Position numbers and translations under genes: made by a program
NCBI GenBank assembly: GCA_948759685.1
Contig: CAQBGY010000100.1
Coordinates: 1 to 9,967 of the forward strand
Origin: an uncultured Eubacterium sp.
GTDB lineage: Bacteria > Bacillota_A > Clostridia > Lachnospirales > Lachnospiraceae
DNA length: 9,967 bases
Direction: 5' to 3'
The notes under the pieces: generated by a model
The model's input: only the letters and a program-made list of their open reading frames with translations
Database searches by the model: none
What the model was told of the DNA's origin: nothing
Shown: one piece after another, positions 1-9,967 of the stretch
Position numbering within the stretch: position 1 is the stretch's first letter
Layout: every line of letters begins with the position of its first letter

Positions 1-99
1 TCTAAACTGACGGGCTAATTCTTCGTATCCTTTGTTCTCGCTGAATAGTTACTTACGCAGATAAAAACAAGCGCAAAGAATAAAGAGGCCGTAACAATC
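1..99. other. Left edge: untranslated or 5'-truncated region before dndE
   Basis: No complete gene is visible here. In the dndE frame there are stops at 16-18 and 46-48. From 49 to 99 the frame is open and reads LLTQIKTSAKNKEAVTI, which resembles the usual N-terminus of Bacteroidales DndE as I remember it, but it contains no ATG, GTG or TTG. On the minus strand, positions 1-48 read LFSENKGYEELARQFR after a stop. This looks protein-like but has no start codon. The stretch may therefore be a junction between dndE and unrelated DNA. I see no convincing promoter. Confidence 0.35.
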
Positions 100-444
100 T
101 TGACACGAAAGTTTGGCTTAGGAGCAGAGAATGTAATAGCGAGAATAGCTATAACTTATTCTCTGCAGAGCGGCACTAAATTTTCGCCTTTAGACATAAA
201 GGACTCTGGAGGGAAAGAATACACAAAGAATGTTCTTTTCGGCAGTCTGTATCCAGTCTATGCAGCAATCATGTGCAAACATTATAGCATCAGAATGTCA
301 GATAAAGATTTGCCTAGATATTTTAAGCTCCACCTAGATGATGGCTTGGAACTAATCATGAGAGATGTAAAAGATAATCCTAATTTGATAGGGTTTGACT
401 ACTTATTTGATAAAATTGAATTGGGATTGAACGAAATATGCTAA
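100..444 (+). CDS. dndE: DndE-family DNA phosphorothioate modification protein, start uncertain
   Basis: DndE is the small DNA-binding partner of DndC and DndD, the enzymes that replace a non-bridging backbone oxygen with sulfur. The 114 residues carry segments that I associate with Bacteroidales DndE: LGAENVIARIAI near residues 7-18, DSGGKEY near 35-41, LFGSLYPVYAAI near 46-57, SDKDLPRYFKLHLDDGLEL near 67-85 and a GFDYLFDKIELGLN tail. The length is close to the family norm of about 110-130. The only usable start is TTG at 100. However, DndE-like sequence continues in frame upstream to about position 49, so the first helix may be lost or a non-standard start is used. The stop overlaps the next ATG by 7 bases (ATGCTAA), indicating translational coupling. 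dndB, dndC and dndD are not in the window. Confidence 0.75.
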   Translation: MTRKFGLGAENVIARIAITYSLQSGTKFSPLDIKDSGGKEYTKNVLFGSLYPVYAAIMCKHYSIRMSDKDLPRYFKLHLDDGLELIMRDVKDNPNLIGFDYLFDKIELGLNEIC

Positions 445-3332
445 GAGCATCGAATATAAACTTCTACAAGATTATGACTGCAGGTTATATATCTGCAGAG
501 GCCTATTCTATGCTTAAGCCTAAAGCCCGTTTCCATGAACTGGACTTAAATGAGTACTTATTATATCCTGACAATATTGCAACAGAGATTAAGCAATTGT
601 TTGAAGATGATGCAACATATGAGGCTATTTGTGGACTAGAGCAGATGGAAGAATGTCTATTTAACGATGATAAACGTCCATATGAGCTTTTGGAAACCTT
701 ACGGTTATCTTCGGGAGAAAAAGTAAATGATTTCTTGTCAAGTACAGGTTCTAAGTTTTTCCTGTTAAATTACGTCTTTAACAATAAAAACAGTCTTAGT
801 ACCAAAGCATTTATCAATATTGACAATATTGATGCTATAATGGACTTTATTATTAAATATGAGAATTCTTTTGTTCAATTATTCACTACTGGTAAAGTTG
901 AACTAAATCTAACACCTTTGGAATCTATGTCTTATAATAGCTATTTAGATATTATTAAAACTGCTGAAAATCCTATAGTAAGAGAGAATTCTGATTTGTA
1001 CTCAGTTCAGCTTCCAAGCACTCGAATGCCTCAATGTACTATTGACCCAAATGCAGTGTCATTAGAGAACACTGTTTATAAAAAATATGTGTTCATACTC
1101 AGTCAATTGACAGATGAAGAATTTGAACCATTCAAATCGTATTTCGAAAGTCAGTTGGCGAATGTTTCTATACGTATAGCCAATTGTGTCAAATCGGTAG
1201 GATACCACATGTTTTATGTAAACTATTTATTTGCAAAAGAGGAGAAACTACTATCTATCCGAAATTTTGGCAAGAAGGCTGTTTATGATTTCAGACAAAT
1301 TAGGCAGTTGTTGATTGATCATGTAATTAATAGTATTGATTATCCTGATGCCAAATTAAAATCTGTTGAAGGTATTGTTACTGCTATCTCTGAAGAGATA
1401 CAGCAACAACAGCTTTTGCAAAATCTTTCCTTACAAGAAATAATAGGCGATACTCAATATGCAATATTGAGTAAGATGCTATATGGATTCACTCAAAAAC
1501 TATCTGTTCGAGCAAAGAATGCAATTAACAGTTATACAGGGGATTTTATTGAGGATTTTGTCCATAAGAACAAGAACATTATGGATATCAAGAATATCGG
1601 TAAAAAATCGTCAGAGGAAATATTGACTGTTGTACAAAAACTGAAAGAATATGCAGAGAAAGCAAAGCTAAAGCCATCGGACGAAATATCGCCAGAAAAA
1701 CTTCAAATTATGGAATATGAAATGTTTTTTGATTACTGTTGGGATGATTTTTCATGTCAGTATTTCCTAAAAAATAGACATTTACCCATGTTCCATATTT
1801 TGGAGAATTGGTTAAACAAACAGGTTGATAAAGGATGGAATATCTTTAAATCATGTCTTCCCCTGTTTGCTGGAGCAGAAATAAAAACTTTAGATGAATT
1901 AGCCGAAAAATATAGTATAACAAGGGAAAGGTGTCGCCAGTTATGTGTTAAACATATTGAGAATTTCCATGAGATTAATGATAAAGAATTGTCTTCGTCA
2001 AGCATAAATCTTACAAAAATTATTGCAAAAACTGAAGAATGGCAATATCTCACTAAGGCTATCTCCTGCAATAATTTGCTGGAGATGGGTATAGTGTACC
2101 CATACATAGTGGAAGAAAAATGCAACTTTTCACAGGAATTTTGTTTCTTTATTTTAAGTATCTTATTGGCAAACGAGTATTCACTTGTTGGGCGTGAGAT
2201 AATTTCGCTTCCCACAAGGGCTAAGCAAATATGGAATAACACATATTTGATTAGATGTGAATATGCTGACGCCTTTAATTTCAGCAAGATACCTTCACTA
2301 ATAGATGAAACAGAGAGTAACTTAACTGAAGATGTAGAAATTGATGCTGAACAGTTGACAATTGACACATTTCTCTTTGAGTGGAACGATTTTGATACAG
2401 AAAAGGTCTATGTCATTTCTGAGATATTATCGCATATCCTGATTCAAGAATGCGGTAAGATACCTAATGAGTGTTTTCAATTTACATTAGAGAGCAAAAA
2501 GATTATTAATGTTACAGATATCATTTACGAGATTTTGCATCAAAATGGTAATCCTATGACTCCAGATGATATATTTACTGAATTAAATAAAATTTATCCC
2601 AACAGGTATAAATCATCAGATAGAGTAAGAACTTTGGTTGCTAGCGACCCTCGTATATGTATGATTGGAAAAGCTAGTCTTGTTGGCTTATTGGAATGGA
2701 AGCACATTAAGATTGGAAGTATTCGTGATATAATCGTACAGTATTTATCAAAGTTTGATGACCCACAACCGGCCGCTAAAATTGTGGAATATGTTCAACA
2801 ATATAGAGACACCACAGAAAGTAGCATACGCTCTTCAATGGGAAGTGGTGATCAGTTTGTTCAATTCAGTGGTGGCCTATACGGTTTGAAAGATAAAACC
2901 TATGCAGCATGGTATAGTATTCCTGAAAAAAGAAGAAGCTTTGCGCTGAGAGTAAATGAAATCGAAATTTTCTTAAGAGAAAACTTACATTTTCCTTTTA
3001 ATCAATCGGATAATGCTACTGAAAATAGTCTTTATACTTGGTGGAGGCGTATTGTAAAGAGCGATGAACTCAATGACGAGCAACGTGCCGAAATTAAGCG
3101 TATACAAGAACAATACAAGGATTATCCTGTAACTCGGCGTGATAACGAATGGAATGAATTTTATAGAAACTATAGGGCGTTTTTGCAGAATTCTGGTCGC
3201 AAACCTCAGAGAGATAATCCCTACGAAAAACCACTTTATAGTTGGTTTGAAAGATGTGTGAATGATTTCATAGAAGGAAATCTATCACCGAACAGAGAAA
3301 AAATGTATATCGAATTATGTAAATTGTTGTAA
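438..3332 (+). CDS. Large multi-domain DNA-binding protein (alpha-CTD-like, sigma-4-like HTH, winged helix, helicase-associated-like repeats)
   Basis: I do not recognise a named family for the whole 964 residues, but several DNA-binding modules are visible. Residues about 270-292 (LLSIRNFGKKAVYDF) and 379-403 (IMDIKNIGKKSSEEI) each resemble the helix-hairpin-helix of the RNA polymerase alpha C-terminal domain. Residues about 483-510 (TLDELAEKYSITRERCRQL) match a sigma-70 region 4-like helix-turn-helix. Residues about 690-820 look like tandem HARE-HTH or winged-helix units. Residues about 835-890 and 901-960 form two related repeats with LYTWW and LYSWF cores, like the helicase-associated domain at the C-terminus of some SF2 helicases. 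No nuclease or ATPase motif is evident. The start overlaps the dndE stop, and the next gene begins 3 bases after the stop. I infer a DNA-binding scaffold or recognition subunit, not a transcription factor. The helicase it may work with is encoded next door. Confidence 0.7.
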   Translation: MLRASNINFYKIMTAGYISAEAYSMLKPKARFHELDLNEYLLYPDNIATEIKQLFEDDATYEAICGLEQMEECLFNDDKRPYELLETLRLSSGEKVNDFLSSTGSKFFLLNYVFNNKNSLSTKAFINIDNIDAIMDFIIKYENSFVQLFTTGKVELNLTPLESMSYNSYLDIIKTAENPIVRENSDLYSVQLPSTRMPQCTIDPNAVSLENTVYKKYVFILSQLTDEEFEPFKSYFESQLANVSIRIANCVKSVGYHMFYVNYLFAKEEKLLSIRNFGKKAVYDFRQIRQLLIDHVINSIDYPDAKLKSVEGIVTAISEEIQQQQLLQNLSLQEIIGDTQYAILSKMLYGFTQKLSVRAKNAINSYTGDFIEDFVHKNKNIMDIKNIGKKSSEEILTVVQKLKEYAEKAKLKPSDEISPEKLQIMEYEMFFDYCWDDFSCQYFLKNRHLPMFHILENWLNKQVDKGWNIFKSCLPLFAGAEIKTLDELAEKYSITRERCRQLCVKHIENFHEINDKELSSSSINLTKIIAKTEEWQYLTKAISCNNLLEMGIVYPYIVEEKCNFSQEFCFFILSILLANEYSLVGREIISLPTRAKQIWNNTYLIRCEYADAFNFSKIPSLIDETESNLTEDVEIDAEQLTIDTFLFEWNDFDTEKVYVISEILSHILIQECGKIPNECFQFTLESKKIINVTDIIYEILHQNGNPMTPDDIFTELNKIYPNRYKSSDRVRTLVASDPRICMIGKASLVGLLEWKHIKIGSIRDIIVQYLSKFDDPQPAAKIVEYVQQYRDTTESSIRSSMGSGDQFVQFSGGLYGLKDKTYAAWYSIPEKRRSFALRVNEIEIFLRENLHFPFNQSDNATENSLYTWWRRIVKSDELNDEQRAEIKRIQEQYKDYPVTRRDNEWNEFYRNYRAFLQNSGRKPQRDNPYEKPLYSWFERCVNDFIEGNLSPNREKMYIELCKLL

Positions 3333-3335
3333 GGA

Positions 3336-5525
3336 ATGCTAGCAGATATAACTTTTCATCATATATATTCCAAGTCTGATTTGCATAGACCAATAGAGTT
3401 TTGCTTGCAGGCTCTAGGTAATAGCATCAGATTAGATTTGGGCTTGGGCTATTTCAGTTCAGCCAGTTTCAATGTACTTTCACTCGGGATGGCACAATTC
3501 ATCGTAAACAATGGGTGTATGAATTTGTACATAAACAAGTACGTCAGCATTGACGACTATGCTCTGTTAAAGGGTGATTATGATGAAAAGTTTGATGACG
3601 AACTCGTAACATCTTTCACTAGCCTAAAGAAAACATTCGATCAACGTGATGAACATTTCTTTAAATGTTTGGCTTATCTAATTGCAACCAATAGGGTAAA
3701 TATAAAAATTATCGTTCTAGCGGATGGCGGACTTCCTCATGAAAAATATGGCATTTTTACAGATGAAGTTGGTAATAGAATTCATTTTACTGGCTCAATG
3801 AATCTAACCGCTTCAGCAATCTTAGGCAACCTTGAAACCATAGAGTGTACCTGTTCTTGGAAAGGTGATGACAGCCGAGAAAAGGTCTTATCTTTAGAAC
3901 AACATTTTCACAAGGTGTGGAACGGTGAGTGCGAAGGAGTTAAGATTTATAATGCTAAGCATTTCTGCAATAACATCATGACAACGTATCCGAATCAAGA
4001 CCCGGAAAATCTTCTACGCAAAGAAAAAGAATTTTTAGCCATATATAATGTGCAAATGAAGTCGGTTTCAAATGATGCTCCTCATTTCCCATTGAAATAC
4101 AAAGATGGAGCTAGGCCATATCAAGAAGAGGCATATAAGGCTTGGGTAGAAAATGGTAAGCAAGGAATATTTGCGATGGCAACGGGTACAGGTAAAACTA
4201 TTACCTCGTTAAATTGTGCATTACATGAATATAACGAGGATAAGTTTTACAACTTGCTGATACTTGTGCCTTCGCTAGACTTAGTAGCTCAATGGCAAGA
4301 AGAACTAAAAGGGTTCAACTTTAAGAAGTCTATAAATGTGTCATCACAGAATGCTTCTTGGAGGAAAGAGTTAATGGATATATCCCAAAAAGTCAAAAGA
4401 AAGAAAACTGTAAATTATGCAATTGTTTCAACGTATGATTCATTTGTAAACAAAGATTTCCAGTATCTTTTACCCATACTTTCGGAAAATATGATTCTCA
4501 TAGCTGATGAAGCACATAATATAGGAGGAAAATCGGTCAAGGAGTGTTTTCGCAATCTAAAAGTTAGGCGTAGAATAGCTCTGTCTGCCACTCCTGAGAG
4601 GATTTATGACGAAGAAGGCAGTAAGGATATAGCATCATTCTTCAATGACAGCCATCCGTATGTGTATTCATTTCCTATGAGTAAAGCTATTAATGAGGGC
4701 AGGTTATGTAAATACTATTATTATCCTAAATTAGCATACTTAAATGACGGTGAAATGAGATTATATAGCCGTATATCAAAGAGGCTTGCACAATTATGGG
4801 ATAGCGAAAATGGAAAATTTAAGAACAAACAAGAAGCTGAAATGCTCTTGATGAATAGAAAGCGTATTATTCACAAGTGCTCCGATAAATTAAATGTTTT
4901 TCGTGAAATAATTTCTGAGATTGGAAAAGATGACCTAAGATACACATTCGTATATGCCCCACAAGGCAAATATGAAAAGATGGGCATTGATGATGAGGTG
5001 ATATTGACAGAAGAAGATGATATGTCATTTATCCAAAGATTGTTAAATGAAGCGAAGATGATGTATCCCAATAAGCGTTGCAACACATTTACAGGCATGG
5101 ACTCAAAGGATAAACGTTCGCTTTTGCTGAAATCATTTGCTGATGGCAATCTGGACATTTTATTTGCTATGAAGTGTTTAGATGAAGGTGTGGATATTCC
5201 AAGGGCTGAACGTGGCATATTTACATCGAGCACTGGCAATCCACGAGAATTTATCCAGCGTCGTGGCCGTTTGCTGCGTAACCACCCCGATAAGATGTTT
5301 AGTTATATCTATGATATAGTGGTAATACCAGCAACAATTAACCGAGAAGATAGTTTTGGGCAGATGGAACGGAATATGGTTAAGTCTGAATTAAAAAGAG
5401 TAGCATATTTCGCAAGCCTGTCAATGAATTGCCATGCCAATAATGGAGCGTTTGAGATTCTTAATGATCTTGCTCATCATTTCGGCATAGTATGGTCTGA
5501 ATTACTAGAAAAGATTGAACAATAA
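3336..5525 (+). CDS. PLD-like nuclease / SF2 DEAH-box helicase fusion protein
   Basis: The N-terminal 200 or so residues resemble a phospholipase-D-like nuclease domain: LPHEKYGIFTDE around residues 133-144 gives the H-x-K pair (H135, K137) with a nearby Asp, followed by FTGSMNLTASA (151-161). Only one HKD half-motif is seen, so activity would need dimerisation, as in single-HKD nucleases. The C-terminal 470 residues form an SF2 helicase: RPYQEEA (260-266), Walker A MATGTGKT (281-288), DEAH (391-394), SATP (417-420), FAMKCLDEGVDIP (610-622) and arginine finger motif QRRGRLLR (641-648). All core motifs are intact, so ATP-driven translocation or unwinding is likely. Start ATG lies 3 bases after the previous stop, with AAGGA just before it. 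The architecture fits a restriction or anti-phage helicase-nuclease. It may correspond to the helicase family annotated as 'DNA phosphorothioation system restriction enzyme', but I cannot confirm that. Confidence 0.85.
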   Translation: MLADITFHHIYSKSDLHRPIEFCLQALGNSIRLDLGLGYFSSASFNVLSLGMAQFIVNNGCMNLYINKYVSIDDYALLKGDYDEKFDDELVTSFTSLKKTFDQRDEHFFKCLAYLIATNRVNIKIIVLADGGLPHEKYGIFTDEVGNRIHFTGSMNLTASAILGNLETIECTCSWKGDDSREKVLSLEQHFHKVWNGECEGVKIYNAKHFCNNIMTTYPNQDPENLLRKEKEFLAIYNVQMKSVSNDAPHFPLKYKDGARPYQEEAYKAWVENGKQGIFAMATGTGKTITSLNCALHEYNEDKFYNLLILVPSLDLVAQWQEELKGFNFKKSINVSSQNASWRKELMDISQKVKRKKTVNYAIVSTYDSFVNKDFQYLLPILSENMILIADEAHNIGGKSVKECFRNLKVRRRIALSATPERIYDEEGSKDIASFFNDSHPYVYSFPMSKAINEGRLCKYYYYPKLAYLNDGEMRLYSRISKRLAQLWDSENGKFKNKQEAEMLLMNRKRIIHKCSDKLNVFREIISEIGKDDLRYTFVYAPQGKYEKMGIDDEVILTEEDDMSFIQRLLNEAKMMYPNKRCNTFTGMDSKDKRSLLLKSFADGNLDILFAMKCLDEGVDIPRAERGIFTSSTGNPREFIQRRGRLLRNHPDKMFSYIYDIVVIPATINREDSFGQMERNMVKSELKRVAYFASLSMNCHANNGAFEILNDLAHHFGIVWSELLEKIEQ

Positions 5526-5538
5526 TAATTTTTAAGAT

Positions 5539-5751
5539 ATGGACGGTAAAGAAATTTTCAAAGAAATCCTTAAATCTCCGCAAATGAAAGAACTTCTTGG
5601 AGTTTCTTCAGGTGAAGAGATTCATGAAGATTATGAGAGTTCTTCTCAGCACCCTGAAATTTCAGTAGTGCAAAGTATTATTGATGCGCAAATTCGGCAT
5701 ACGTCTGATGATGCCTTGTTTAAAAACATAAAGAAGATATTTGACTTATAA
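5539..5751 (+). CDS. Small acidic hypothetical protein (70 aa) of the dnd-linked operon
   Basis: No family is recognised with confidence. The N-terminal part (GKEIFKEILKSPQMKELLG) and the C-terminal part (SVVQSIIDAQIRHTSDD and KNIKKIFDL) look helical, separated by an acidic, Ser/Glu-rich linker near residues 24-38. There is no signal peptide or membrane segment. The gene lies 13 bases after the helicase stop and 2 bases before the ATPase start, so it is co-transcribed and probably real despite its size. A partner or adaptor of the SMC-like ATPase or the helicase is the simplest guess. Confidence 0.65.
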   Translation: MDGKEIFKEILKSPQMKELLGVSSGEEIHEDYESSSQHPEISVVQSIIDAQIRHTSDDALFKNIKKIFDL

Positions 5752-5753
5752 TT

Positions 5754-7898
5754 ATGGCAACAATTATTAATTCTGTTGCGTTCGAGAATTTCTACAACTA
5801 CTATGGAAGTTACGAACACAACGAGTACAAATTCAAACCAGGTATAAACATTGTCAATGCCGATAATAATATGGGTAAGTCAAAGTTTTACAATGGTTTT
5901 ATGTGGTTACTCCGTGACCAAGTGTACGATTCAGATATTAAGGCTTTTTGTGATGCGAATGAGTCACTGTTTAAGATGGCTTCCGGCAAAGCAAAGGCTG
6001 AAGATTATGAATTCAAGGTTGGATTCAGAGTCATCTTTACTAATAGTGACACTAAGTATACTATGGAGAAGTATGCCTTGTTCTGTCATAAGAAAGGAGA
6101 ATTAATTCATGAGGAATCAAGATTGGATATCATGGAGACAGTTAATAATGCTGACACACCTATTCTTGACAAAGGCGAGCAGATGAGCATAATCAACAAA
6201 GTATTCATACCTCTTGCTCTACGTAACTATGCATTGTTACAAGGTGAGTCAATGGACAGGCTTGTTGATTTATCGTCAAAAAAAGCTTTAGCTGATACCA
6301 TTGATACGTTAGCTGGCATTTCCGTTTTGAAAGGCATCTGTGATATTTCCAAAAAGATGGCTCAAAAAGCATATAGTCTGTTTCAAATGGAAGATTCTGA
6401 GAATTCCAAGTTTGATTTGGAACGAAAAAGAGACAAAGAAAAACGAAATCAATTTGTCGCTAATATTGAATCCACTCTGACTGCAATTGAAAATGCAAAG
6501 GACGAGCTTAATGCAGCAAAAAGGAAGAAGGAAGAGTTAGATGCTTTTATCAGTAATTCAAGCAAAAGAATTGAAATCCGCTCACAATTGGATAATATTC
6601 GAATCCAGATAGACAATCAAAAAAAGTCAATCGAGAGGATTGAGACCTCAATTACAAAAAAAATCTTCGATGAAGAGAATCCTTGGCTTCTAATAGGATT
6701 GGAGGATGAGCTTGATACTTTTGATACTAGAAGAGAGAAGCATATTGGCGATTTGGCACAAATGAACAATGATGGAGCGTTGGTTATAATGTTACCAGAA
6801 GGTTCTCCCGATAGTTCATCTTTGGAACGTATGCTTAAAAATGAAGTATGCGAGGTGTGTGGTCAACCCGCCGCAAAGCACTCTAAGGCATGGGAACATA
6901 TCAAACTTATTCTGGATCGCCCCAAGAAAGTTAGTACAAACCGAAATGATTTCGGTCATTTTTATGGAACATTGCAAAAATCTGCCAGTTCATATTCACG
7001 CAATATTCCACTAATAGAATCAAGGATAGAAGCCTTGAAAGACAAACTTGACGAGGAGAAAGAACATCTTGAAAAATTGGAAGAAAAACGTGAAGAGATT
7101 TTCACAGAGTTAAACAATGCTGGCGGAAACGCAGATAATTCTTCATTTAACGATAAAGCTATCATCAAAGACTATGATATCGTTAATACGACCATAGCAA
7201 CTAAAGAACGAGAAATAAGTGAAAAGCAACGTATGGTTGCAACGTGGAATAATTCATTGGACGTTATTAATCAAAAATTGTCCTCATACAAGAAGGATAT
7301 GTCAGTCCAAAAGTACGAAGATTTTGCGGATTTGATGAAAAAAATAAATGATGTTATTGTTAAAACTAAGGATGACATTTATGACCGTACAATTACTGCT
7401 TTGGCAAAAGAAGCTAATGAAAAGTATATTGCTTTGACTACTGGCAACCAATCTTCCGGCGGTAAATTACTTTTTGAACGCAATCACGATGTGGTAAATG
7501 TTTCTATCCGTGATGTGCAGAATGGCGAAATTACAGGTTTAGGTACAGGATTCCAAAGAATGAAGCAGCTTGCAATTGTGATGGCCATCATTTCATCAAA
7601 GATCGGAGATGAAAAAAAATTCGACTATCCCTTTATCTCAGATGCTCCCTTCTCTGAATTTGGTGAAAACTTTGTCAATAATTTCTTCAAAGTTGCCCCA
7701 GGAGTTTTTAGTCAAAGCATTATCATGATTAAAGAACTATATGACCCTACTGCAAAAGATTTGTTAACTCCTTTTGGTAGAAGAATTCTAGAAGAGATGA
7801 AGAATGGTAAAATACCTGGAACATTCTATGTCAACGTAATAGAAGATCGAGCAGATACAACAGGGCTCGTAACGTCACACAAATGTTATTTTGAGTAA
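5754..7898 (+). CDS. Rad50/SMC-like ATPase with zinc hook, DndD-like architecture
   Basis: The 714-residue layout follows Rad50, SbcC and DndD: an N-terminal ATPase half, a coiled coil (about 220-300), a CxxC hook (CEVCG, C366 and C369), a returning coiled coil (about 410-545) and a C-terminal ATPase half. The P-loop is NNMGKS at 38-43, lacking the first glycines of a canonical Walker A but keeping GKS. LLQGES at 161-166 fits the Q-loop. The signature region is GLGTGFQRMKQLAI (595-608) instead of LSGGQ. Walker B is YPFISDAPF (625-633), with D630 kept. Coiled-coil composition is clear from the Glu/Lys-rich heptads. It is not the standard DndD sequence and sits downstream of dndE, so I read it as a separate SMC-like component of the associated module. 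It is packed 2 bases after the small protein and 3 bases before the next gene. Confidence 0.8.
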   Translation: MATIINSVAFENFYNYYGSYEHNEYKFKPGINIVNADNNMGKSKFYNGFMWLLRDQVYDSDIKAFCDANESLFKMASGKAKAEDYEFKVGFRVIFTNSDTKYTMEKYALFCHKKGELIHEESRLDIMETVNNADTPILDKGEQMSIINKVFIPLALRNYALLQGESMDRLVDLSSKKALADTIDTLAGISVLKGICDISKKMAQKAYSLFQMEDSENSKFDLERKRDKEKRNQFVANIESTLTAIENAKDELNAAKRKKEELDAFISNSSKRIEIRSQLDNIRIQIDNQKKSIERIETSITKKIFDEENPWLLIGLEDELDTFDTRREKHIGDLAQMNNDGALVIMLPEGSPDSSSLERMLKNEVCEVCGQPAAKHSKAWEHIKLILDRPKKVSTNRNDFGHFYGTLQKSASSYSRNIPLIESRIEALKDKLDEEKEHLEKLEEKREEIFTELNNAGGNADNSSFNDKAIIKDYDIVNTTIATKEREISEKQRMVATWNNSLDVINQKLSSYKKDMSVQKYEDFADLMKKINDVIVKTKDDIYDRTITALAKEANEKYIALTTGNQSSGGKLLFERNHDVVNVSIRDVQNGEITGLGTGFQRMKQLAIVMAIISSKIGDEKKFDYPFISDAPFSEFGENFVNNFFKVAPGVFSQSIIMIKELYDPTAKDLLTPFGRRILEEMKNGKIPGTFYVNVIEDRADTTGLVTSHKCYFE

Positions 7899-7901
7899 TA
7901 T

Positions 7902-8453
7902 ATGAATCACCAAGAATTAAGAGAGGCTATCTTTGGAAGAAAGCCTAGATACAGCGAGAAATTTAAGCCTTTGATGGAGCGTATCTCTATAAAAGGAGAT
8001 TTGACGGGTAAAGGAGATTTTTCCACCTTTGGCGCTTTCTATCAAACCTTTATGTATGCTTATATAATAGGTCTTAGATTAGGCAAGAAAACACCCCTCA
8101 CTAACGAGGACAAGAAAGTAGAGTTTGCAGATATCTCACATTGGAAACCAACGCCAATCAGAGATTTCATCTTAATGACTCTGCTAAACCGTACAGAGAA
8201 GTTTGATAACTTCTCTTGGAACTGGTTGTCATTAGAAAATAGTTCTGAGGAAAATGTATCAAACTTTATTACTATGCTTATTCGAGAAATGGAGGCATAT
8301 GCAAACATAGGATTGATTTACCTTCAAGACAAATGGGATAATGAGAAGATGTTATTCAATTCTCCATTTGTATTTGTAGACATTCTTCAGGAGTTACCAA
8401 AGAATAATAAGGAATCACTTGCTCAAACAGAGCTATTATCAAATGCTGAATAA
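7902..8453 (+). CDS. Hypothetical protein of the dnd-linked operon (183 aa)
   Basis: I cannot assign a function. It starts 3 bases after the ATPase stop. Visible features are GRKPRYSEKF near the N-terminus, a short ISIKGDLTGKGDFSTFGAFY stretch, an aromatic segment YQTFMYAYIIGLRLGK (about 48-63) and MLIREMEAYANIGLIYLQDK (about 124-143). The middle has alternating hydrophobic helices but nothing long or hydrophobic enough for a membrane span. The pattern of a basic N-terminus, FYxxFMYAYxxGL and a closing 'EAYANxGL' helix reminds me of small proteins found beside dnd or ABC-ATPase defence genes, some of which databases label misleadingly as 'glycoside hydrolase family 15'. No catalytic motif of a glycosidase is present. 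It is probably a structural or bridging subunit of the neighbouring ATPase. Confidence 0.7.
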   Translation: MNHQELREAIFGRKPRYSEKFKPLMERISIKGDLTGKGDFSTFGAFYQTFMYAYIIGLRLGKKTPLTNEDKKVEFADISHWKPTPIRDFILMTLLNRTEKFDNFSWNWLSLENSSEENVSNFITMLIREMEAYANIGLIYLQDKWDNEKMLFNSPFVFVDILQELPKNNKESLAQTELLSNAE

Positions 8454-8898
8454 TATAGTTTTATATAAAAATGCTTTTTTGAATCTACATGTTAAGATAG
8501 TAGATGGACGGAAATTTCCGAACAAGGCCATCTTGTTAATTAGCGTGATGGATCTTGTTCGGTGTGGATATATTGTAGATAATAGGATAAGGCTTGATAA
8601 CACTATCTGCACAGCGTTTGAATATAACTGGAAGGTGTTTGTTGATTCTACGCCACCTACTGTTTGGACTCCATTTTGGCATATGAAGAAGGAACCATTT
8701 TGGCATTTTTACCCCATTCATACTTTGGCTGATATTGATAGACTTGTAAAACCAGGAGAGACAGCTTCATTGGGAAGAATGAAAAGGGAAATAAAATATG
8801 CTTATTTGGACAATGAGTTATTCAATATAATTCAAGAAACATCTGGGAGAACAGAGTTACTTACTGTTTTGAAAACTGAATTTTTATCTCTAAGATAA
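8443..8898 (+). CDS. Stand-alone COG3440/McrA N-terminal-like domain, putative modified-DNA (PT) sensing protein
   Basis: This 151-residue protein resembles the N-terminal domain found before the HNH nuclease in COG3440-type restriction enzymes. The pattern is FPNKAILLISVMDLV (about 25-39, equivalent to the usual HKPxLLLxVIDL), then TPFWHMKKEPFWHF (about 76-89), then YAYLDNELFNIIQE (about 119-132). In ScoMcrA-type enzymes this region contains the PT-DNA sulfur-binding domain, so a role as the PT reader is attractive here, but the binding residues cannot be assigned from sequence alone. No HNH motif follows; the gene ends without a nuclease domain. Start ATG at 8443 overlaps the previous stop by 11 bases and is preferred over an in-frame TTG at 8419. 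It is the last gene of the operon. Confidence 0.65.
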   Translation: MLNNIVLYKNAFLNLHVKIVDGRKFPNKAILLISVMDLVRCGYIVDNRIRLDNTICTAFEYNWKVFVDSTPPTVWTPFWHMKKEPFWHFYPIHTLADIDRLVKPGETASLGRMKREIKYAYLDNELFNIIQETSGRTELLTVLKTEFLSLR

Positions 8899-8979
8899 AG
8901 ATTTTGGGACAAAATTAATTTTGAGTAATTTAATCCAATTTAAGATCAATATTACTCTGATTGTCTATGAAACCTTCTA

Positions 8980-9022
8980 AATCTGCAAGTTTTTTATCTT
9001 AAGGGTCTAAAACTTGCAGATT
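8980..9022. terminator. Perfect 14-bp inverted repeat between convergent genes, candidate bidirectional terminator
   Basis: The arms AATCTGCAAGTTTT (8980-8993) and AAAACTTGCAGATT (9009-9022) pair perfectly around a 15-base loop. It lies 81 bases after the last plus-strand gene and 8 bases after the minus-strand ribbon-helix-helix gene, so it could end transcription from both sides. Against a classical terminator, neither side has a clear U-tract after the stem, and the top of the stem is A/T only. A recombination or protein-binding site is the alternative. Confidence 0.5.
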
Positions 9023-9030
9023 ACATATTC

Positions 9031-9477
9031 CTACTTTACCTTTGGTAGCCTGATTTTTCGGTTCACCTCTTCCCATTTATTAACGTAAGCGTTTAATGCT
9101 TCCGCAATTACATCCTTTAAAAGCAAACCTTCAACAAGGGAAATATACTTCACTTTACGAAGTAAATCCGCATCCACAATAAAGGTAGCCCGAACTTCTT
9201 GAGACTTCTTCGCAATTTTGGCGGCTTCACCCTTCTTAGGACGACCCACATTTTCTTTGCGCTTGGCTTCCAGTCTGGATTTCATCTGTTCGGTAGTCTC
9301 TGTTTCCACTGATAAAGTTTCCTTTACATGGTTCACTTCGTTGTTCTGAGGTTTAGCATCCTGACTTTCTTCCTGAGCGACAGATTTCCCTTGTATAGAC
9401 TGTTGTTGAGTGGCTGATGATGTTTGGGCTTCGCCTATGAAACCATCCATCAATAAGGTTAAATTTTTCTTTGCCAT
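9031..9477 (-). CDS. Ribbon-helix-helix protein with AT-hook-like motif, putative ParA partner
   Basis: The 148-residue protein has a low-complexity, Gln/Glu/Ser-rich N-terminal half (about 15-65), a basic GRPKKGE segment (78-84) that resembles an AT-hook, and a C-terminal ribbon-helix-helix-like fold. In the latter, EVRATFIVDADLLRKVKYIS supplies the strand and first helix (about 94-113), and the second helix follows through ALNAYVNKWEEV. Such proteins follow parA on many Bacteroidales plasmids and integrative elements, and act like ParG-type centromere-binding and autoregulatory partners. Start ATG is at 9477-9475, 108 bases downstream of the parA stop. It is convergent with the operon to its left. 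A DUF3408/TraB-like conjugation protein is the nearest alternative, but the C-terminus fits ribbon-helix-helix better. Confidence 0.65.
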   Translation of the reverse strand: MAKKNLTLLMDGFIGEAQTSSATQQQSIQGKSVAQEESQDAKPQNNEVNHVKETLSVETETTEQMKSRLEAKRKENVGRPKKGEAAKIAKKSQEVRATFIVDADLLRKVKYISLVEGLLLKDVIAEALNAYVNKWEEVNRKIRLPKVK

Positions 9478-9536
9478 ACATTTATTGGTTTATTTGTTGA
9501 GTTTCTGATTTACTGATTTTATTACTTGCCGATTTG

Positions 9537-9580
9537 GTTACTATACTACAAATAACCTTTGCAATAAGTCATATAGTAAC
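9537..9580. repeat. 9-bp perfect inverted repeat between parA and its downstream gene
   Basis: GTTACTATA (9537-9545) and TATAGTAAC (9572-9580) are perfect inverted copies separated by 26 bases, in the 108-base gap between the ParA stop and the ribbon-helix-helix start. Just beside it lies a short direct repeat, CTGATTTA then CTGATTTT (9505-9520). Position and symmetry fit an operator or partition (centromere-like) site bound by the ribbon-helix-helix dimer. A weak hairpin after parA is the alternative. Confidence 0.4.
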
Positions 9581-9585
9581 ATAGT

Positions 9586-9967
9586 TTACCTATTTTCTTC
9601 CCGACTGATTATTTCCTCTGTGAGCGTCTTATAGTCAGCAGCACCATTGCTCTTCGGGTCATATTCAAAGAGGGTCTGACCGGATAACGGCATTTCAGCA
9701 ATGGCAATGTTCTCTCGGATTTTCGTCTGAAACACCTTATCTCCATACCGGTTCTTCACCATATTCATAACTTCCTTATTGAGTTTGCGGTTATTAAACC
9801 GAGTGAAGAACACACCGCCCAATTCCAACTTAGGATTTACCCTTCGCTTGACTTCGCTGACAATATCATCCAACATGGTCAGTCCTTTCAAAGGAAGAGC
9901 TTCGGCGGTCAATTGGAAAAGCCACTCAACTTTGACCCTTTTGGCCACGCAAGATTTGCCCACCTTT
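9586..9967 (-). CDS. parA: ParA-family partition ATPase, C-terminal part, runs off the window
   Basis: The visible 125 or so residues match the C-terminal half of ParA/Soj ATPases: EALPLKGLTMLDDIVSEVKR, then RVNPKLELGGVFFTRFNNRK, then TKIRENIAIAEMPLSG and finally YDPKSNGAADYKTLTEEI. ParA uses ATP-dependent DNA binding to segregate plasmids or integrated elements. The frame stays open to the right edge, so the gene is partial here. The residues just before LTAEALPLKG (KVGKSCVAKRVKVEWLFQ) do not look like the usual ParA segment at that place and include a GKS that resembles a Walker A, so the N-terminal side may be deleted or rearranged. The GTG at 9963 should not be taken as the start. Confidence 0.75.
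   Translation of the reverse strand, partial: KVGKSCVAKRVKVEWLFQLTAEALPLKGLTMLDDIVSEVKRRVNPKLELGGVFFTRFNNRKLNKEVMNMVKNRYGDKVFQTKIRENIAIAEMPLSGQTLFEYDPKSNGAADYKTLTEEIISREENR

Follow-up and report, generated by a model that had tools for sequence, protein, structure and literature searches.

The 9,967-nt stretch examined here (the window; uncultured Eubacterium sp., contig CAQBGY010000100.1) carries, immediately after a dndE gene, a six-gene operon that is probably, with moderate confidence, a phosphorothioate (PT)-linked PbeABCD anti-phage module with two added DNA readers: a 964-aa multi-helix-turn-helix (HTH) protein, here termed ORF2, and a stand-alone sulfur-binding domain (SBD). This reading is drawn from sequence comparison and structure prediction. 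Judged by its relatives, the operon probably derives from Bacteroidota. Four of the six genes correspond to PbeA, PbeB (by position), PbeC and PbeD in their usual order, separated PbeA lineages also carry an SBD gene behind PbeD, and part of ORF2 is found fused to PbeA in related loci.

A PbeABCD core adjoining dndE

Six open reading frames (ORFs) lie on the + strand at 438-3332 (964 aa), 3336-5525 (729 aa), 5539-5751 (70 aa), 5754-7898 (714 aa), 7902-8453 (183 aa) and 8419/8443-8898, with successive gaps of 3, 13, 2 and 3 nt and an 11-nt overlap between the last gene and the one preceding it, in agreement with the operon that the sequence-only reading had described. The last ORF was listed by the program as 8419-8898 from a TTG codon; as its nearer homologues are mostly 148-153 aa long, the ATG at 8443 (151 aa) was taken as the best start. 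The gene upstream, at 49-444 (+), is a dndE gene with an incomplete 5' end, encoding the DNA-recognition subunit of PT modification (PF08870, 2.2e-25; PADLOC DndE, 2.6e-11; TIGR03184, 3.3e-17, below cut-off). The first codon of the 964-aa ORF (438) falls within dndE, 7 nt short of the end of that gene (stop codon at 442-444), so that the proposed coupling of the cluster to dndE is plausible. The same layout, with dndC-dndD-dndE upstream of the cluster, was found in loci L014, L015, L019 and L046 of the survey described below, which argues that the six ORFs are not chance ORFs.

The 729-aa protein (3336-5525, +) combines an HKD (PLD-type) nuclease-like domain with a superfamily 2 (SF2) helicase/translocase and matched PADLOC PbeA at 1.9e-235 (TIGR04095, 5.4e-117, below cut-off). 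Its HKD-type residues are kept in nearly all of 99 aligned sequences (H135 in 96, K137 in 97, N156 in 97 and E167 in 98, with gaps accounting for most of the rest). Of the helicase residues inspected, all are conserved in 99/99 except A393 (68/99). The 714-aa protein (5754-7898, +) is a Rad50/DndD-like ABC ATPase with a coiled coil and zinc hook, matching PADLOC PbeC at 2.2e-24 (alignment A6). By alignment, the hook (6849-6860, +; C366-C369) reads CxxC and not CxC, a form also present in 71 of 76 PbeC proteins examined with a motif pattern in mid-protein, the other five having CxC; the name "CxC ATPase" therefore does not fit most PbeC seen, and the window was filed under Pbe only. The 183-aa protein (7902-8453, +) had no PADLOC match and, as a single sequence, matched PbeD weakly (A5; 15.6%, 0.0017), so family profiles were used instead. 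With hhalign, its 63-row family, drawn from the survey loci, matched 22 PbeD sequences at 98.4% (5.6e-15), and its nearest 9 rows did so at 97.1% (5.4e-11). PbeD, the partner of PbeC, has been described by others as a DndE cognate; comparison of DndE with the 183-aa family and with PbeD gave no match (0.6%, 1.0%, 3.9%), so that view was not confirmed here. Between pbeA and pbeC, the 70-aa protein (5539-5751, +) was assigned to PbeB by place and size, not by homology, the archaeal PbeB having 66 aa (PMC6459918); homologues of 70-73 aa occupy the same place in eight relatives (L014-L019, L046, L073).

These profile matches identify the PLD-helicase, the "SMC-like" ATPase and the 183-aa protein as PbeA, PbeC and PbeD; the 70-aa protein is assigned to PbeB by position. 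The sequence-only reading was thus right in seeing a PT-linked, defence-type operon coupled to dndE, and, for four of the six genes, wrong in holding that no known PT-restriction set has this gene content.

Survey of PbeA loci

GTDB r220 contigs were scanned with a PbeA profile, yielding at least 588 pattern matches; 537 relatives were found among the matches listed, and the best 80 of these 537 were kept, a choice that biases the sample towards relatives of the window PbeA and towards Bacteroidota. Dnd, Ssp, Pbe, ORF2 and SBD genes were sought with custom profiles in all of these loci, each with up to 10 kb on either side; Dnd genes counted only if they shared the strand of PbeA, Ssp genes on either strand. 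By this count, 15 loci had dnd genes, 56 had ssp genes, none had both and nine had neither (several on short contigs), the last class including L093, with a divergent dndD (3e-57), and L089, with Ssp matches weaker than the 1e-10 cut-off. PbeABCD thus stood in most sampled loci (e.g., L027 and L035) with SspB-SspC-SspD, single-strand PT writers, rather than with Dnd. In these two loci, a PADLOC check confirmed SspB, SspC and SspD, together with an SspA/DndA cysteine desulfurase in L027.

The co-occurrence predicted from the window was borne out only in part. All seven of its gene types recur together in L014 alone among the 80 loci, and the set minus the SBD recurs in L015, L019 and L046, of which L015 has 118 nt left on its contig after PbeD, too short to judge. 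In a FastTree phylogeny of 99 PbeA sequences, the window, L014, L015, L016-L018, L019, L046 and L073 formed one clade (0.995), Dnd-linked throughout except for L073, whose contig begins inside pbeA. The ORF2 gene of this clade may reflect one gain; L003/L006 and L013, which also carry such a gene, lie elsewhere on the tree.

A second sample comprised 393 genomes from the order to which G001, the genome of L014, belongs; first-look candidates per genome were limited, so that its counts are lower bounds. PbeA was found in 11 of these genomes (E<=1e-80), six with ssp (L171, L173-L176, L179), two with dnd (G001/L014, L170) and three with neither (L172, L177, L178), two of these three being on contigs of less than 7 kb.

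Several loci showed peculiarities of their own. The L015 contig (JADLKP010000032.1) is binned as Methanobrevibacter, its operon being nested in an otherwise Bacteroidota PbeA clade, a placement that would reflect mis-binning or transfer. Two "Bacteriophage sp." (UNVERIFIED) records, L004 and L005 (MT835493.1, MT835506.1), hold SspBCD-like genes with PbeA and PbeC and are perhaps bacterial contigs mislabelled as phage. In L170 (4984-6051, -), a PbeD-like protein of 355 aa has a C-terminal extension, which presumably resembles a Schlafen/AlbA_2 domain.

ORF2 and its linkage to pbeA

ORF2 (438-3332, +), proposed here as a PbeA-partner or target-recognition subunit, matched the alpha-CTD family PF03118 in two stretches (2.6e-13). 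Its tandem alpha-CTD-like domains (residues ~205-300 and ~320-410; 1050-1667, +) matched each other by hhalign (97.8%, 1.3e-12) and are followed by a sigma-70 region-4-like HTH (residues ~446-512; 1773-1973, +; profile A2, 2.3e-7 for the best-matching sigma region 4 chain in the PDB), tandem HARE-HTH-like winged helices (residues ~690-760 and ~758-826; 2505-2915, +; repeat match 94.6%, 6.6e-8) and two C-terminal helicase-associated (HA)-like repeats (residues ~826-964; 2913-3329, +; repeat match 86.3%, 4.8e-6). Among 38 homologues, domain matches at E<=0.01 numbered 37 for alpha-CTD and 23 for sigma-70 region 4; the HARE (PF05066) and HA (PF03457) assignments are weak, each resting on four of the 38 and none in the window protein itself. 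No enzyme domain was found in domain searches. The AlphaFold2 model (pLDDT 83, pTM 0.44) may be read as a series of separate small domains and had no PDB match at E<=0.001, an absence that is no evidence of a new fold.

Within loci L001-L093, an ORF2 gene was found directly 5' of pbeA in seven of 93 (L003, L006, L013, L014, L015, L019 and L046), all with dnd genes; counting the window, eight Pbe loci have the gene, and in each of them it immediately precedes pbeA. Hosts outside the window clade were Ruegeria (L003), Pontibrevibacter (L006) and Arthrobacter (L013), and in the plasmids L003 and L006 the equivalent gene is annotated "sigma factor-like helix-turn-helix DNA-binding protein". A tie to PbeA itself came from L016-L018, where a 924-926-aa PbeA follows dndE directly, no separate ORF2 gene was found, and PbeA residues 9-173 match ORF2 residues 608-831 (hhalign 96.3%, 2e-9), with control profiles A1, A4, A5 and A6 all below 1%. 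The second HARE-HTH-like helix falls in this fused part, and the fusion to the PbeA N-terminus was counted in favour of ORF2 as a PbeA partner.

A tblastn search of plasmids and phages with ORF2 gave no match and is evidently insensitive, since plasmids L003 and L006 carry a distant ORF2-like gene; single-protein patterns found none in viral contigs, and alignment A3 returned 21 stretches of genome contigs and no relative, though L014 and others, found through PbeA, lie there. In the 393 genomes, ORF2 matches were seen in 35 (E<=1e-15). The 35 regions round such matches, from 34 other genomes and a second copy in G001, several on short contigs, held dnd genes in two cases (L124, L126) and PbeA in none; in 15, the neighbours were rplI and a SpoU methylase. 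Taken as a whole, the ORF2 family is therefore not PT-specific, and the link to Dnd-Pbe in the survey holds for the form directly 5' of pbeA.

The gene beside rplI and the SpoU methylase (L129-L132, L135-L141, L144, L151-L153) encodes a relative of ~480-520 aa with alpha-CTD, sigma-4 and HARE parts and is a recurrent chromosomal gene. In L124 (5787-11891, -) and L126 (1-5683), an ORF2-like gene precedes genes for a DndD-like ATPase and for a fusion of DndE with a HerA/DndH-like ATPase; PbeA was not found there. A long ORF2-like protein (806-866 aa) ends runs of four to five genes in L127 (3213-10603) and L142 (9010-17965, -), possibly another defence operon; one gene of the L127 run had an HtpG/HSP90-like match (1.3e-11, below cut-off).

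A stand-alone sulfur-binding domain

The last gene (8443-8898, +) encodes a 151-aa protein covered over its whole length by an SBD match, the fold being supported both by sequence alignment to 8h0l and by structure prediction. No Pfam family was found for the SBD, and no Pfam HNH match was found in the protein. This is the protein labelled "COG3440 N-terminal-like" in the sequence-only reading; the view that it and the large DNA-binding protein lie outside known sets held, both being additions to the published module. Its family of 28 rows is stand-alone (117-205 aa), and in all 28 the sulfur-cavity residues P77 (P165 position) and K28 (R117, an Arg/Lys position) are invariant, equivalences taken from sequence alignment to 8h0l and the residue list of PMC6224610, not from superposed coordinates. 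The protein is predicted to bind the PT sulfur of DNA and is the best candidate PT sensor in the operon.

A same-strand SBD follows PbeD, at gaps of ~0-115 nt, in ten of the 80 loci (L014, L035, L045, L050, L054, L058, L059, L065, L074 and L090), and in nine of the 66 in which PbeD has 700 nt or more of sequence behind it. Together with the window, these loci occupy four or more separated positions on the PbeA tree: window+L014, L050/L059, L054 with the L035 type, L045, and the cyanobacterial L090. Elsewhere in the locus, an SBD was seen in L026, L033, L034 and L089, and a 66-aa SBD fragment in L076. As SBD matches occur in only 12 of the 393 genomes (E<=1e-4), the recurrence after PbeD was counted in favour of a module with an SBD reader. 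One of these 12 has PbeA next to its SBD. Among the other 11 regions, the SBD of L165 adjoins dndC, that of L160 lies less than 3 kb from a dndE match, and L167 shows a weak SspD-like match; the remainder, some on short contigs, showed none of the genes sought.

In L035 (15187-17106), L058, L065 and L074, the protein directly after PbeD has 638-743 aa with an N-terminal SBD; that of L035 also has a Myb-like domain (PF00249, 6e-6). The C-terminal end appears winged-helix-like by eye.

Proposed mechanism and alternative explanations

In Xiong et al. 2019 (PMC6459918), loss of dndCDEA removes Pbe protection without a growth defect, and virus bearing PT marks escapes; such PT-dependence calls for a PT-sensing step. 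In the mechanism that we propose, Dnd proteins would write PT marks on host DNA, PbeC-PbeD (a Rad50-like ATPase with a DNA-binding partner) would scan DNA, and PbeA would be the effector, combining SF2 translocase and HKD nuclease. ORF2, by means of its winged helices, would recruit PbeA to DNA, the SBD would bind PT sulfur and signal "self" DNA, so that the complex is licensed against unmarked invader DNA and kept off host DNA, and PbeB may restrain or couple the complex. A broader idea, which we put forward tentatively and consider rather unlikely, is that SBDs (stand-alone or Myb-fused) and HARE-HTH modules form the PT-sensing part of the Pbe type, linking PbeABCD to a Dnd or Ssp writer by reading sulfur, and that many "solitary" Pbe loci are Ssp-linked and PT-licensed. 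In PMC6459918, only 42.1% of 553 PbeAC were found with dndCD; the Ssp genes in 56 of our 80 loci, a Bacteroidota-biased sample, offer one possible answer. In a subset of Pbe systems, the recurrent operon SBD that keeps two key sulfur-cavity residues is a concrete, cheaply testable candidate sensor, and the PbeA fusion is a candidate for target recognition.

A number of observations weigh against a module with two added readers. Archaeal PbeABCD is reported to work with DndCDEA alone (PMC6459918), so neither ORF2 nor the SBD is essential to the Pbe type, and in the same source no cleavage of viral DNA was seen, though PbeA is nuclease-like and cleavage is predicted in PMC10853773. The H116 position, among the most highly conserved of the SBD cavity (PMC6224610), is Asn (Asn27) in the window protein and His in 8h0l, L014, L050, L090 and P0129-P0135. 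In 57 of the 66 loci that leave 700 nt or more after PbeD, no SBD was found there; L019 and L046 carry ORF2 and have 3.6 and 7 kb after PbeD, with no SBD found; and PbeA stands beside the SBD in only one of the 12 SBD-matching genomes. The ORF2 family, as noted, is not confined to PT systems. The presence of ORF2 in four of 15 same-strand Dnd loci (L014, L015, L019, L046) versus none of the 65 others (Fisher 8.6e-4) is uncorrected for shared ancestry, the window-clade ORF2 loci being one clade, and L013 is the weakest case, its ORF2 profile score (4e-6) being no better than the rpoA/sigma background and only an hhalign match to the HARE region (84.9%) supporting it. Several of these points would suit a PbeABCD system of the usual kind that carries two passenger genes, in which ORF2 does no more than regulate transcription of the operon and the SBD is an independent PT-reading gene sitting at its end by chance: ORF2 has sigma-4 and alpha-CTD domains, most of its relatives in the 393 genomes lie away from detected PT loci, and most Pbe loci examined lack both genes. 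We consider this explanation improbable, as a pure operon regulator leaves unexplained the fusion of ORF2 residues 608-831 to PbeA in L016-L018, and as ORF2 keeps its place directly 5' of pbeA wherever it occurs in Pbe loci and the SBD follows PbeD in several separated PbeA lineages.

It is quite improbable that the SBD protein is instead a PT-dependent, type IV-like restriction component or remnant targeting foreign PT-DNA. SBDs are best known from SBD-HNH enzymes (PMC6224610, PMC7461809), an SBD protein annotated as HNH endonuclease follows a PbeC fragment in L001, a 334-aa SBD protein lies beside dndC in L165, and wHTH+SAD+HNH was counted in the Dnd locus of 698 taxa (PMC10853773); the window protein, however, is nothing more than a 151-aa SBD, the ORF that follows it lies on the opposite strand, and the invariant cavity residues of its stand-alone family argue against a decaying remnant. 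The view of the sequence-only reading, an entirely novel system of PT-dependent restriction that has no relation to Pbe, could draw on the 16-19% identity of the window PbeC to seven plasmid-borne PbeC in alignment A6, on the missing PADLOC match of PbeD and on a CxxC rather than CxC hook. With the PADLOC matches to PbeA (1.9e-235) and PbeC (2e-24), the PbeD family-profile match (6e-15) and the order A-B-C-D preserved, this view is already largely refuted and is now very improbable. The explanation that we prefer is therefore still a Dnd-linked PbeABCD module with ORF2 and the SBD as candidate readers.

Flanking sequence

The window begins with dndE, any upstream dndB/C/D genes lying outside it. 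The dndE start codon is not visible: an in-frame stop at 46-48 is followed by LLTQIKTS, and related DndEs, with which the N-terminus was compared, start with Met plus two or three residues and QI(K/R)TS or similar. Bases 1-48, interrupted by stop codons in the dndE frame and unlike the sequence of related DndEs, resemble a ragged or chimeric contig end and are probably an artefact. Converging on the operon are genes for a PrgO-like protein (9031-9477, -; 1.1e-4, below cut-off) and a ParA-like protein (9586-9966, -; CbiA, 1e-6), which suggest a plasmid or integrative element. No terminator was found after the operon (8700-9967).

Comparison with known systems

Among the PADLOC matches listed for the seven window proteins (25 of 26 for PbeA), there was none to DndF, DndG, DndH or SspE. 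The comparison proposed at the outset, with DndFGH, Pbe and Ssp profiles, thus ended in a Pbe match for the core, with ORF2 and the SBD as extras; with DndFGH, SspE/SspFGH and DndI, the window module shares a general role in PT-linked defence. In the CxC ABC-ATPase/DndE system (PMC10853773), the hook is CxC, unlike the CxxC of the window PbeC. MzaA of the MZA system is likewise a large sigma-4-containing protein in a defence locus; other MZA components were absent from the matches listed for the window proteins, and membership of MZA was rejected, the NF041931 match (0.018 over 28 residues) being far below cut-off. The 151-aa protein lacks the HNH nuclease of ScoMcrA-type PT-dependent type IV restriction enzymes and differs from the SBDs of ScoMcrA, SprMcrA and SBD-Hga in being stand-alone, in lacking both SRA and HNH, in sharing its operon with a PT-writing gene, and in having Asn at the H116 position. 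Searches of the open full-text literature and passages of PMC10853773, PMC12839542, PMC7464106, PMC7461809 and PMC12707154 revealed neither a stand-alone SBD nor an alpha-CTD/sigma/HARE protein at Pbe loci; an Ssp-Pbe pairing was likewise not found stated in them, PMC8053081 being the one paper in which SspBCD and Pbe occurred together.

The closest known system remains PbeABCD with DndCDEA, described by two groups that agree on the Pbe gene set and differ on the nature of PbeC and on DNA cutting (PMC6459918; PMC10853773). Like it, the window has a PbeA HKD-helicase, a small PbeB, PbeC and PbeD in the same order with dnd adjacent. Unlike it, the window has a PbeB and a PbeD too diverged for single-sequence matches, and its Pbe genes are flanked by two additional ones, for the 964-aa multi-HTH protein on the upstream side and for the stand-alone SBD on the downstream side.

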